NCBI GenBank assembly: GCA_913049555.1
Contig: CAJWYM010000024.1
Location: 1 to 42,492 of the forward strand
Direction of reading: 5' to 3'
Origin: an uncultured Opitutia bacterium
Lineage (GTDB): Bacteria; Verrucomicrobiota; Verrucomicrobiia; Opitutales; CAJWYM01
Length of the DNA stretch: 42,492 nt
Positions 1,532 to 39,010 of the stretch are shown piece after piece (the first letter of the stretch is position 1; each line of letters starts with the position of its first letter). A program made the position numbers and the translations under genes. Under the pieces are notes generated by a model. It was not told the origin of the DNA. It searched no databases and saw only the letters and a program-made list of their open reading frames with translations.

Positions 1532-3055
1532 TTAAAGTTCTAAACGGGGGAATAGGATCATTTTTTCGCCAACATTTGACCCCTCCAAAGAGCTCCCCCA
1601 ATGAGCATCTTGGATCCAATTTTGATTGTCTGGTGCTCCAATGCTTTTGGTGATTTCAGAGCTAATCTTAGGCATAACTGGATTTAGTAAAAGAGCACAT
1701 AGCCTCAATCCTTCAGCGATTGAAGCAAGGCAAGTTTGTAGGCGATATTTGTCAGCAGTTTCTTCTGATTTGGCAAGTTTCCATGGGGCTCGGGTTTCAA
1801 TATAACGATTTAAAGAACGGATAAATTCAAAAATCTGATCCAATCCCTCTTGAATTTGAAAATCTTCAAATTGTTGGAAAACCTCATTTTCTAGTTTTTG
1901 CCAATTCTGGATCAATTCCACTTCTGCTTCCTCTTTTACAGTAGATGCAGGAATTATTTGATCTGCATAACGACTTGTCATGTTTAAAAAACGACTTACG
2001 AGGTTTCCTAAATCATTAGCTAACTCACTGGTGTATCGGATGAAAAATTGATCTTGACTGAAGTCACTGTCTTGACCCACTCTCATTTCTCTCATAACAA
2101 AATAACGGAAAGAATCGGTCCCAAATTTCTGAACGAGGTCTAAAGGGTTGACAACCGTGCCTGCACTTTTTGACATCTTTTTACCTGAAATATTCCAAAA
2201 TCCGTGAACTAGAAGGTGTTTAGGGAGTTCTTTATTACAAGCTTTAAGAATAATCGGCCAATAGACAGCATGCGGGGGAACTAAAATATCCTTGCCAATT
2301 ACATGGTAATCTGCCGGCCATTTGTCTTGATCAGCAACGGCTGAAATATAATTTAACAACGCGTCAAACCATACGTAGGTTACAAATTTTTGGTCAAATG
2401 GAAGCGGAATCCCCCAACTCAGTCTCTCAATGGGTCTTGAGATACAAAGGTCATTTAGGGGTTCTTTTAAAAATTCAAGGACTTGGTTTTTTCTAAAACG
2501 AGGGAAAATAAACGAATCATGGGCCTCTAGAAATTCAATCAGCCACTCTTGGTATTGAGCGAGTCTAAAAAAATAACTTTCCTCGGTGATTTCTTCGACC
2601 TCTCCGTAAATCTCAGGCCACTCTCCCTCTATTTGGTCTTTCTCTTGAAGAAATTGCTCGGCCCTTTTACTGTAGTATCCAGTATATTCTGATTTGTAGA
2701 TTAAGTCATCATTAAATAGTTTTTGTAATAATTTGCAGACATACTCTTTGTGCCTTGTTTGAGTGGTCCGTATATAATCTGAGTTAGAAATATTGAGATC
2801 TCGACATAGAGTTAGGAATTCGGCAGCAACAAGGTCACAACGAGCTTGAGGTTGGATATTTTCTTTTTCCGCTCCTTGTTGAACTTTTTGTCCGTGCTCA
2901 TCCAGTCCTGTAAGAAAATGAACATTGCGGCCTGTCAATCTACGATGCCTCGCAATTACATCCGTAAGTACTTTTTCATAGGCATGACCTAGATGAGGGG
3001 ATCCATTGGCGTAATCAATGGCTGTTGTAATGTAAAAATTTTCCTGATTGTTCAT
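1532..3055 (-). CDS. metG: Methionyl-tRNA synthetase, short zinc-less form
   Basis: Charges tRNA-Met with methionine; cytosolic class I synthetase. The HIGH signature is HLGH at residues 21-24 and KMSKS is at 293-297. The anticodon-binding helical domain follows and the protein ends at 507 residues, so the C-terminal EMAP/Trbp111-like tRNA-binding domain of longer bacterial enzymes is absent. The connective-peptide knuckle, normally carrying Cys pairs, reads TGYYSKRAEQF here and the second half reads GEWPEIYGEVEE. All expected zinc ligands are replaced, placing it among the zinc-free MetRS forms. The ATG at 3055 has no obvious Shine-Dalgarno sequence. menF follows after 11 bp and the ribD-like gene lies 94 bp upstream on the same strand. 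Confidence 0.95.
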   Translation of the reverse strand: MNNQENFYITTAIDYANGSPHLGHAYEKVLTDVIARHRRLTGRNVHFLTGLDEHGQKVQQGAEKENIQPQARCDLVAAEFLTLCRDLNISNSDYIRTTQTRHKEYVCKLLQKLFNDDLIYKSEYTGYYSKRAEQFLQEKDQIEGEWPEIYGEVEEITEESYFFRLAQYQEWLIEFLEAHDSFIFPRFRKNQVLEFLKEPLNDLCISRPIERLSWGIPLPFDQKFVTYVWFDALLNYISAVADQDKWPADYHVIGKDILVPPHAVYWPIILKACNKELPKHLLVHGFWNISGKKMSKSAGTVVNPLDLVQKFGTDSFRYFVMREMRVGQDSDFSQDQFFIRYTSELANDLGNLVSRFLNMTSRYADQIIPASTVKEEAEVELIQNWQKLENEVFQQFEDFQIQEGLDQIFEFIRSLNRYIETRAPWKLAKSEETADKYRLQTCLASIAEGLRLCALLLNPVMPKISSEITKSIGAPDNQNWIQDAHWGSSLEGSNVGEKMILFPRLEL

Positions 3056-3149: not shown

Positions 3150-3596
3150 TCAAAGATGCATACTTTTATTAAAGATTGGATTTAAAGCTTCACATTCCTC
3201 AGCTAATAAATGGGTGTGAACTTTTATTTTTGCCTCTCTGAGAATAGAGATTCCTTTTCCATTGTGAATGGGGTTGGGGTCAATGGTTCCTATGAAAACT
3301 TCTAGAATTCCGGAACTTATTATGGCATCACAACAGGCACCTGTATTTCCTTGGGTCGAACAGGGCTCTAGAGTAACATAGAGCTTTGCTCCTTTAGGAC
3401 TGGAATTGCCCAACTTTTTAAGTGCCATTTTTTCTGCATGGTCTGTGCCTGCTTTTTTGTGGAAACCTCTTGAAATAATTTTATCTTTGTGAGTAATTAT
3501 GCATCCTACTCTTGGGTTAGGCGAGGTTTGAGTCTCCGTAACTTTCTGAGCCTCATAGATCGCTTCTTTCATGAATTTGTAATCCGATTCGGTCAT
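3150..3596 (-). CDS. ribD: Stand-alone RibD-type deaminase domain
   Basis: Predicted pyrimidine deaminase of riboflavin synthesis, acting on the diaminohydroxyphosphoribosylaminopyrimidine intermediate; cytosolic, zinc-dependent. Visible motifs are NPRVGC near the start, the HAE zinc/catalytic motif (DHAEKMAL) and the PC-x8-C zinc motif (EPCSTQGNTGAC). Usual RibD is about 360 residues with a C-terminal reductase. This protein stops at 148 residues just past the deaminase fold (EALNPIF, where RibD normally reads LNxxF). Only 94 bp separate its stop from metG, so no broken reductase follows. The reductase would have to be a separate protein elsewhere. A related cytidine/dCMP deaminase-like function cannot be excluded, but the NPRVGC context favours RibD. 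A plausible promoter lies in the upstream region that also carries a repeat shared with position 38.88 kb. Confidence 0.78.
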   Translation of the reverse strand: MTESDYKFMKEAIYEAQKVTETQTSPNPRVGCIITHKDKIISRGFHKKAGTDHAEKMALKKLGNSSPKGAKLYVTLEPCSTQGNTGACCDAIISSGILEVFIGTIDPNPIHNGKGISILREAKIKVHTHLLAEECEALNPIFNKSMHL

Positions 3597-3641
3597 GTCC
3601 TTAATTGTGATTTAGATAGTCCTATCTTTATAATTATTTTA

Positions 3642-3675
3642 AACTCGGAGGATGCAATAGAAAATAAGATTCAAG
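3642..3675 (-). repeat. 34-bp intergenic repeat, copy 1
   Basis: Read on the minus strand this carries CTTGAATCT, a 4-nt variable stretch, then a 21-bp block centred on CTATTGCATCCTCCGAG. The second copy at 38864-38897 on the plus strand matches the 21-bp block exactly and the full 34 bp at 30 positions. This copy ends 45 bp before the ribD-like start codon. Its TTGCAT could act as a -35 element, with an AT-rich -10-like stretch (TATAAA) about 19 bp downstream, so it may be part of the ribD promoter. I do not know the family of this repeat. Confidence 0.7.
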
Positions 3676-3772
3676 AATTCTTCTAACTTTACATCTGATA
3701 AAGCTGGATGATTTTTAAAAACAGGAAAGTTCTGGATCCTTCTTTTCAGCGATTTGAATGCGAGCTAAAATT

Positions 3773-3803
3773 AAAAAAGCCGGAAAAATTCCGGCTTTTT
3801 AAT
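3773..3803 (-). terminator. Rho-independent terminator after pnp
   Basis: A perfect 7-bp GC-rich stem, GCCGGAA/TTCCGGC, encloses a 3-nt loop at 3779-3795 and is flanked by T-runs on both strands. It lies 54 bp beyond the pnp stop codon and should end the rpsO-pnp transcript. The symmetry means it could also act in the other direction, though no plus-strand gene leads into it. Confidence 0.85.
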
Positions 3804-3856
3804 TAAATAGGGCCAAAATTAAGTTTGGCTCTCAAAAGAATTTTTAAAATATGAAA

Positions 3857-6028
3857 TTAACTAGATGCCAGTTCAATTTCATCTGATTCTTCCGATTTTT
3901 GATCCTCGTCTTGATCGATAACATCTGCCAATGCAGCTTTTCTACTCAAACGAACTCTTCCACGGTCATCAATACCAATACATTTAACAACAATTTCATC
4001 GCCTTGTTTACAAATATCCTCAGTCTTTTTAACTCGAAAATCTGCTAGCTCGGAAATGTGGACCAATCCTTCTTTTCCAGGTAGACATTCAACGAAAGCA
4101 CCAAAATCCTTGATGGATTTCACCAAGCCTCGGTAGGTTTTCCCGACTTCAATTTCACCCGTTGCCATTTCAACTTCTTCGATCGCTCTTGCTAGACTAT
4201 TTCCATCGCTAGCAAAGATCTTAACGAGTCCAGAATCATCGATATCTAGATTTGCACCCGTTATTTCAGTAATTCTTTTTATATTTTTACCTCCAGGGCC
4301 GATCAGTGCACCTATCTTGTCAGGAGCAATATTAACAGCATGAATCCTTGGAGCGGTTTCTCTGAGTTCTTGTCTAGGTTCAGGGGAACAAACATCCATT
4401 GTTTCAAGAATTTTGAATCGAGCTTCATTCGCCTGACGAATTGCTTTTTTAGCAATATCGAAAGGAAGACCCTTTATTTTAAGATCCAATTGAAAACCTG
4501 TAATTCCTGCCTTTGAGCCGGCTATTTTGAAGTCCATATCACCAAAATGGTCCTCTGCACCAATGATATCTGTCAAAATAACGTGTTTTTCAATTTCTTC
4601 AGCATCGTTCATTTTGCTTACTAGTCCTGCTGAAATTCCTGCGACCGCACCGGTAATTGGAACACCGGCATCCATGAGTGAAAGGGATCCTCCGCAAATA
4701 CTCGCCATGGAGGTAGACCCGTTGGATTCCATAATCTCAGACACAATTCGGATCGCATATGGAAAGTCTTCCTCGGAGGGTAGGACGGGGACGAGTGAGC
4801 GTTCTGCGAGTGCGCCATGTCCAATTTCTCTTCTTCCAGTCATTCCAAATCTACCGGTTTCTCCAACGGAGTAAGGGGGGAAGTTGTAGTGCAATAAGAA
4901 TGATTTTGAAGTGGCACCTCCTGTCAATCCATCAATATCTTGAGTGTCCCTAGAGGTTCCAAGTGTAGTAAGAACAAGCGCTTGAGTTTCTCCTCGGTTG
5001 AAAAGACTTGAACCATGTACTTTAGGTAAAACACCAGTTTCACAGGAGATCTCTCTTAAATCGGCAGCAGCCCTTCCATCCGCTCTTTTGCCAAGTTCTA
5101 GAATATTATTACGATAGACTTCCTCTTGGAGAACTTCAAAAGACATACTGATTTGATCTTTATCAAATGCGTCTTCTCCTATTTTTTCAAGGACGATTGC
5201 AGCAGCCTCTTCCTTAATAACATCGACAGCTTTTTCACGCTCTTGCTTGGAATCAGTAAAGATGGCATCTACCAGTTTGTCAGCTGCATATGAACGACAA
5301 GTTTCTAGTATTTCAGGATCCGCAATAACAAGGTCAAATTCTGTTTTTGTATTTCCGACTTTTTCAGCCAGTTCTTTTTGAGCAACAATGATCGGTTGGA
5401 TTGCTTGGTGAGCATATTCCAATGCCTCGCAAAATCTTTCTTCAGAGATTTCGTCAGCACTTCCTTCAATCATCATCATCTCTTTTTCATTGCCAACATA
5501 GATGAGGTCCAAAGTAGATTCAAAAATTTCCTCATTGCTTGGATTTACAACAAATTCGCCATCAATCTCTCCCAATCGAATACAACCAACGGGACCTTCC
5601 CAAGGAATGTCAGAGATCATCAAAGCAGCTGAAGCTCCATTGACCATCAATATATCAGGCTCATTGATTTTATCACAGGAAAGTAGCAAACCAATTACTT
5701 GAACTTCATTTAAAAATCCCTTAGGAAACAAGGGTCTGAGGGGTCTGTCGCAGAGGCGGGAAGTTAAGATTTCTTTTTCAGAGGGGCGGGCTTCTCTTTT
5801 AAAAAATCCACCTGGGAATCGACCTGCGGCAGCAAATTTTTCACGGTAATCTACAGTGAGAGGGAAGAAGTCCTGGCCGGGTCTGATGCTGGAAGCAGCA
5901 GTAGCAGTAACGAGTAGGGAGGTGTCTCCCATTCCAATAGTGACCGCACCATTTGATTGTTTAGCAATCGTGCCAGTCGATAGGGTGATGTTCATACCGG
6001 GAACATCTACAGAGAATTTCTGTTTCAT
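3857..6028 (-). CDS. pnp: Polyribonucleotide nucleotidyltransferase (PNPase)
   Basis: Phosphorolytic 3'-5' exoribonuclease and part of the RNA degradation machinery; works as a trimer in the cytosol. The 723-residue protein has the full architecture: a first RNase PH-like domain (about 1-225), an all-alpha linker, a second catalytic RNase PH domain (about 310-545), a KH domain with the GPGGK loop near residues 575-580, and an S1 domain at the C-terminus (about 625-695). The tail is acidic ([12 protein letters not shown]). The ATG at 6028 has AGGA about 8 nt upstream, one of the better ribosome-binding sites in the window. It follows rpsO after 164 bp, the classic rpsO-pnp arrangement, with a hairpin between them. 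Confidence 0.98.
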
Positions 6029-23620: not shown

Positions 23621-23697
23621 GGGGTAGTAGTTCAGTTGGTTAGAATGCCTGCCTGTCACGCAGGAGGTCGCGAGTTCGAGTCTCGTCTATCCCGCCA
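23621..23697 (+). tRNA. tRNA-Asp (anticodon GTC)
   Basis: A 77-nt cloverleaf with encoded CCA. The acceptor arm GGGGTAG/CTATCCC pairs with one G-T wobble, the D-arm is followed by the anticodon stem CCTGC/GCAGG with GTC at 23655-23657, and the T-arm contains GTTCGAGTC. The discriminator is G, the identity base for Asp. A promoter precedes it and a terminator follows. Confidence 0.97.
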
Positions 23698-23738: not shown

Positions 23739-24167
23739 GTCTATTTTTTTGAAATATTTTTTAGTTTCCTTGGATTCAAAGATATAAAAAAGAGCTCTTT
23801 TTCTTCTCTAAGAAAAGTAAAGAATAGCAAACTTTTTTACAGGGAGAGTACAGTAAAAAAGATTAGAACGAAATGTGTTATTAAATCCTGAAATAGTACC
23901 GATTTGGTTCCTTAAATGTTTTCATAAATCATTGCATTTGAATATTTAAAGATTTAAATCAAAGTTCTAATTAGGAATTCGGATTCAAAATATGTGAACG
24001 AATCTTTCATGGTTTCAACCTTTCTAGATTTTCTTCTATTCGTTTTGATAAAAAATCCCAAGGTCAAAAAATTCTTAAATATTTTGATTGCATTGAATGA
24101 TTTATTTCAAAGGGAATATGAATCATTCATAGGAACTATTTTAGAGGCTATCGTGGAAACGGATTGG
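23739..24167. other. Gap between tRNA-Asp terminator and outer-membrane gene
   Basis: About 430 AT-rich bases. A 65-codon frame on the plus strand (23994-24191) is open but runs into the convergent gene, has no domain-like pattern and has no ribosome-binding site. I regard it as chance. Nothing else is recognisable. Confidence 0.4.
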
Positions 24168-38613: not shown

Positions 38614-39010
38614 TCGAATCTTCATTTTTCAAAACAGGATCTTAGATTCATGTGAATTAAATCCTTGTAGACTTTTATTTTCAAAGGAGCTTTGCTTGCA
38701 ATTTGACTTAAGAGATGAAATCTAAAATGTTTAAACCGAGTAAGTCATTAGAACTTTGATTTCAAGCTCCACAGATTCGGTTGTAATGATTTGTTGTAAA
38801 CTGTTCGGAACCAAAAAGATCTCATACAGGATTCAATAACTCATTTTACACTTATATTTTTTTCTCGAATCTGACATTCTATTGCATCCTCCGAGTTCCA
38901 TCAAAAAAGCGGTTCAATTTTTTTCTTTGTAATTTAAGAGGCTATTTAATGGGATCAGAACTGTGGATTTAAAAGGAATAAGTCATTTAAAAAGAGGATT
39001 TCAGGAATAA
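38614..39010. other. Gap between lipoprotein and gatB genes
   Basis: About 400 AT-rich bases between convergent genes. It contains repeat copy 2 (38864-38897), and no gene or clear terminator. Two convergent transcripts should end here, which makes the lack of a visible hairpin notable. Confidence 0.4.
38864..38897 (+). repeat. 34-bp intergenic repeat, copy 2
   Basis: CTCGAATCT, a 4-nt variable stretch and a 21-bp block centred on CTATTGCATCCTCCGAG. The block is identical to copy 1 at 3642-3675, which lies on the opposite strand. No gene starts downstream and no -10 element is visible, so a promoter role shared with copy 1 is doubtful here. It may be a small RNA, a protein-binding site or the remains of a larger repeat. 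Confidence 0.7.

Follow-up and report, generated by a model that had tools for sequence, protein, structure and literature searches.

The window, by which we mean the whole 42,492-nucleotide stretch that was analysed, contains two related 34-bp sequences, one of which lies in front of a ribD-like deaminase gene, as the earlier note on this DNA had reported. The two match at 30 of 34 positions and share an identical 21-bp block (3642–3662 and 38877–38897), and the pair is beyond chance; a 31-mer with four free positions has two exact matches in the window and none in 100 dinucleotide shuffles. The ribD-like gene (3150–3596, minus strand) encodes only the deaminase half, matching positions 1–136 of the 343 in the TIGR00326 profile with 158.1 bits (cut-off 156.35), and there is no room beside it for the reductase domain because the next ORF spans 1532–3055. 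The features considered here are as follows.

3642–3675, minus strand: 34-mer copy 1, CTTGAATCTTATTTTCTATTGCATCCTCCGAGTT, very probably from the right terminus of a MITE copy
3640–3681, minus strand: stretch over which this end fragment can still be recognised; it lies between the ribD-like deaminase gene and the terminator that follows pnp
3682–3752, minus strand: possible decayed interior of the 3640 copy, in register, of low posterior and not significant
3774–3800: terminator behind pnp
23844–23988, minus strand: third copy, right end missing (E 4.3e-22; model positions 2–145)
38731–38898, plus strand: fullest copy of the old MITE family in the window (E 1.9e-37, 123.4 bits; model positions 3–170 of 172)
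38864–38897, plus strand: 34-mer copy 2, CTCGAATCTGACATTCTATTGCATCCTCCGAGTT, right terminal part of the 38731–38898 copy

At first sight the pair is a two-copy curiosity, since the exact 14-letter core occurs genome-wide only at these two sites. Allowing three mismatches in the 21-mer gives six genomic sites (none for the reversed control), and flanking sequence is common to most of the six. A sequence-only model (R1), started from seven stretches aligned over about 170 columns, finds at least 52 copies at E ≤ 1e-7, from 50 source loci of the 3.1-Mb draft genome (95% complete), so that the genome holds far more than the two copies whose isolation, together with a lack of conservation in relatives, would according to the earlier note have spoken against a functional or mobile element. 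At E ≤ 1 there are at least 89 matches, some of them on both strands of one place and thus indicative of an imperfect palindrome. These numbers are lower bounds, 150 of 3572 first-look candidates having been scored. For the divergence, flank and location counts we used 52 rows, leaving out eight antisense matches and weak rows from a 77-row alignment.

A consensus of about 165 bp, of which the 34-mer forms the right terminal part, starts CCCGAATTCCTCATTAG, ends CCTCCGGG and sits inside TTnAA; its termini (AACCCG...CGGGTT) have longer weak arms, and its end-to-end fold has an energy of -40.5 kcal/mol (z -4.6). The real unit is therefore about 165 bp and not 34 bp, and the proposal that the flanks diverge at once holds on the right side, for this one pair only, and fails on the left, where the 38877 copy runs about 130 bp further with sequence common to dozens of loci. 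Nor is the pair special: among 53 rows (the 52-row set plus the 3640 copy), 95 of 1378 copy pairs agree at 30 or more positions in some block of 34 columns, and this pair was noticed because both copies fall within the window. We rejected an inversion site, or a pair of attachment sites, bounding the 35 kb between the copies because they are two of at least 52.

The fullest copy in the window is flanked by TTTAA on the left and TTCCA on the right, a worn 5-bp target duplication with three of five letters retained. At 3642 the sequence model matches 3640–3752 on the minus strand (E 1e-6), although confident alignment covers only the terminal 40 bp or so; the left part has no significant similarity to the element (p 0.31 against shuffles), which rules out a recognisable full-length copy. 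This left part is lost or decayed beyond recognition, and in the 3642 copy by itself neither a left end nor a target duplication can be tested. The third copy, at 23844–23988, was absent from the earlier note and lies about 150 bp after a tRNA-Asp gene (23621–23697).

Weak R1 matches led to a younger subfamily of near-identical 162-bp elements related to the old family. Their inverted ends are 18 bp long (CCTAAATnnCTCAGTTGA), and the two ends, CCTAAATTCCTCAGTTGA and CCTAAATAACTCAGTTGA, match at 16 of 18 positions. There are eight whole copies of 161–162 bp, with 5-bp flanking duplications that are exact in six (TTTAA, ATAAA, ATAAA, ATTAA, TTTAA and ATCAA) and one letter off in the other two (GTTAT/GTTTT and ATAAA/ACAAA). 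Seven further young ends, of which six fit the pattern exactly and the seventh has a single mismatch, lie 49–59 bp from contig edges; contigs C15, C49, C52, C64, C78 and C85 of this genome (G000) stop 49–59 bp inside young copies. The assembly thus breaks there and the young copy number is underestimated. The younger subfamily is a classical MITE. Its consensus, drawn up by eye, has a fold z of -8.1, and it resembles the old consensus at the ends and has a middle in common with it. Ends of these elements take the general form CC(T/C)(A/G)AATTCCTCA.

The old copies were inserted in the same way as the young ones, with 5-bp AT-rich duplications. Twenty of the 52 reach both ends and can be tested, and six of these keep an exact duplication (TTTAA three times, ATAAA, TTTAT and TTCAA). 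Overall, flank letters agree 71 times compared with 62.2 in shuffles (p 0.003), and the variable middle base of the duplication 12 times compared with 5.6 (p 0.002). Many old copies lack one end, as judged from model spans. Divergence from the consensus averages 23% (10–42%), and mean pairwise identity is 0.64 in a near-star pattern. None of the 52 copies lies mostly inside an ORF of at least 100 aa (mean ORF overlap 2%, compared with 83% for the flanks). Together, the intergenic position, the near-star divergence of about 23% and the lack of compensatory pairing point to a decayed burst. By crude ORF calls the neighbouring ORFs are codirectional for 28 copies, convergent for 20, divergent for three and undetermined for one, whereas other gaps of the same loci include two convergent and six divergent (Fisher p 0.003, with small numbers). 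This convergent or 3' bias fits the removal of promoter insertions, and it may also be compatible with a 3'-end role for the copies.

A regulator site and an sRNA promoter were among the explanations offered in the earlier note, and a reading in which the two sites form a small regulon is favoured by the exact 21-bp block and by the position of one copy in front of the deaminase gene. The 34-mer is conserved no more than other parts of the element (15-nt block means of 0.19–0.27 around a copy mean of 0.23, with no block conserved above the others), most of the remaining copies are located outside 5'/5' regions, and promoter-like sites occur near shuffle level, with none on the strand of the deaminase gene. 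On location, conservation profile and scan controls together we rejected the regulon or promoter, which we regard as very improbable. A structured RNA or RNA-processing element (e.g. an ERIC-type mRNA stabiliser), selected at gene 3' ends, is somewhat less improbable, although we still consider it unlikely. The old consensus folds far better than shuffles, copies are biased to 3' ends, and the young central hairpin differs from the old one yet still pairs; when 41 old pairs are mapped onto the young sequence, 29 still pair and 18 are paired in its predicted fold, with double compensatory changes in three. Across the 52 copies, however, pairs are rescued no more than by chance (71 double-changed paired cells, where shuffles average 65.6 and reach at most 87). 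The copy at 38733–38896, moreover, has a single-stranded DNA fold no better than those of its shuffles (z +0.99), one end is missing from many copies, and a 3' bias would arise equally if harmful insertions in promoters were removed. Rfam has no family that matches any of the three elements tested (the 38731 copy, the 23844 copy and one young copy), which weighs against the structured RNA and the sRNA promoter alike, and we rejected the structured RNA on this and on the lack of covariation.

We conclude that the 34-mer at 3642 is almost certainly the end fragment of a dispersed MITE insertion that has since decayed, in agreement with the small mobile repeat family that was also among the earlier proposals: at least 52 copies are related at E ≤ 1e-7, and in a younger subfamily the target duplications are clean. 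The element is of an ordinary kind, the end of a transposon from a MITE family that has decayed, and nothing found indicates a function for this copy. Terminal inverted repeats are present at both ends of young and old elements, target-site duplications are of 5 bp, both the old (52) and the young (eight whole and seven edge) copies are numerous, and neither the 165-bp old nor the 161–162-bp young form has coding room for a transposase gene. ERIC repeats are likewise imperfect palindromes that are dispersed and intergenic, a likeness of shape, and the elements here differ from them in having defined ends of IS type and clear duplications of 5 bp. In a MITE review, ERIC repeats are given MITE status (PMC10969869). 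The same text describes prokaryotic MITEs that resemble our elements in being short and intergenic, with no transposase gene, inverted ends, target duplications and tens of copies; it does not mention IS1380 (PMC10969869). The point of difference is the usual, though not strictly required, autonomous partner, which is not found in this genome.

Which transposase moved these elements is suggested by the end letters and the duplication length, from which an IS1380-type enzyme is the likely mobiliser. The IS1380 family, to which we take ISEcp1 to belong, has ends beginning CC and 4–5-bp duplications, and the elements here conform to this rule with their CC start and 5-bp duplications. IS1380 insertion sequences are about 1.5 kb long and carry a DDE transposase, whereas our elements are 162–165 bp and carry none. 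The right end of ISEcp1, when reverse-complemented, begins CCTAAATTCC, with the same first ten letters as the elements here (its reverse-complemented IRR is CCTAAATTCCACGT), and 5-bp duplications are made (PMC7864471). In our own genome (a 95% complete draft, broken at young copies) we found no match to PF13701 or NF033539 and no credible match to DDE_Tnp_1 (PF01609), and hence no autonomous partner with the same ends by these searches; the single DDE_Tnp_1 candidate (E 0.5, with stops) was dismissed. Since no IS1380 transposase was found in the genome, we do not file the elements as IS1380 members, and say only that they look like IS1380-driven MITEs.

The same ends are found well beyond this genome. 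The exact 19-bp end is present in 40 stretches of genome_contigs, where about two are expected by chance (an estimate from 257 Gb with equal base use); these are mainly Beta- and Gammaproteobacteria MAGs, plus Opitutae and a deltaproteobacterium. In 26 of the 40 there is an inverted partner no more than 600 bp away, most commonly at a spacing of 234–236 bp, and 12 of these 26 have exact 5-bp duplications, compared with 2.1 in shuffles. The MITEs of about 234 bp (in Nitrosomonas, Rhodoferax, Undibacterium and other MAGs) resemble ours in their ends, CCT(A/G)(A/G)ATTCCTCAGTTGA, and in their 5-bp AT-rich duplications; they differ in length (234–236 bp being commonest, as opposed to 162–165 bp). 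Seven such genomes were searched and hold 5 to 305 ends each. The Nitrosomonas sp. OFTM23 MAG (G018, locus L141) has a very high MITE load, with 305 end matches at up to three mismatches and two for the control. In the only long pair among the 40 stretches (L148, 2425 bp) no transposase was seen, and it was rejected as an autonomous element. Between its 25-bp inverted MITE-type ends, which are identical but for two letters and are flanked by ATCAT and ATAAT, L148:3950–6374 holds a Dam-type adenine methylase (TIGR00571) together with an unnamed ORF of 425 aa that may be the restriction partner of the methylase; this is a possible case of cargo capture.

Of the genomes from which the 40 stretches come, 15 were searched for PF13701 transposases, and seven of these have them at E ≤ 0.001 (four over the cut-off). 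One locus (L181) is a complete PF13701 element of 1517 bp with perfect CCCAGATTTTCCATTA ends and TTTAT duplications; its ends start CCC, and their letters are not identical to those of the elements here. It is the only IS1380 locus of the other genomes with accepted clean paired ends and duplications, L182 and L192 having a similar end on one side only, upstream. That the same MITEs were instead moved by a transposase from outside the IS1380 family, one with similar ends, would be in keeping with the lack of an IS1380 transposase in our own genome, and with there being no complete IS with exactly these ends in the loci read. We consider this possible but rather doubtful, given that ISEcp1 matches in end letters and 5-bp duplications, as does, less closely, the complete element at L181.

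The element as a whole appears more restricted. When 17 other genomes of the order were searched with R1, matches were seen in seven, all at E 0.008–0.1 and taken as noise; 287 other genomes of the phylum gave a single 41-nt match to the young element (E 9e-4), taken as chance. The phylum search recovered two of eight known young copies in our own genome, and thus informs on presence and not on number. Viral contigs gave no match, and plasmids none to window positions 3560–3860. With the order and phylum searches near-empty, the interior appears lineage-specific as far as tested, and the ends widespread. The literature searched contained no description of the family or of the four end-letter variants (ISfinder and most subscription journals being outside its coverage).

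We favour a history in which a transposase supplied in trans, most likely of IS1380 type, would have acted on the inverted ends and inserted copies at AT-rich WTNAW sites, making 5-bp duplications. Copies would have been kept mainly where harm is small, 3' of genes, and the older burst would then have decayed neutrally, leaving at 3642 the end fragment of one such insertion. Several host genomes of such elements have no detectable matching transposase. More tentatively, and with less confidence than in the history itself, a single end-and-target code (CCTRRATTCCTCAGTTGA ends and a WTNAW target) could be common to short non-autonomous elements in far-apart bacterial groups, where they number up to hundreds of ends in a genome; transient, horizontally visiting helpers would then spread the elements, which would sometimes capture cargo.

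An unexplained repeat thus becomes a piece of mobile-DNA history, in which one genome has seen two bursts of related elements, an old one now decayed and a young one whose copies are nearly identical. Anyone annotating this genome should read its conserved-looking intergenic blocks as transposon ends instead of regulatory sites, and should bear in mind that young copies break the assembly. Ends common to distant bacteria would allow the mobilising transposase to be identified.
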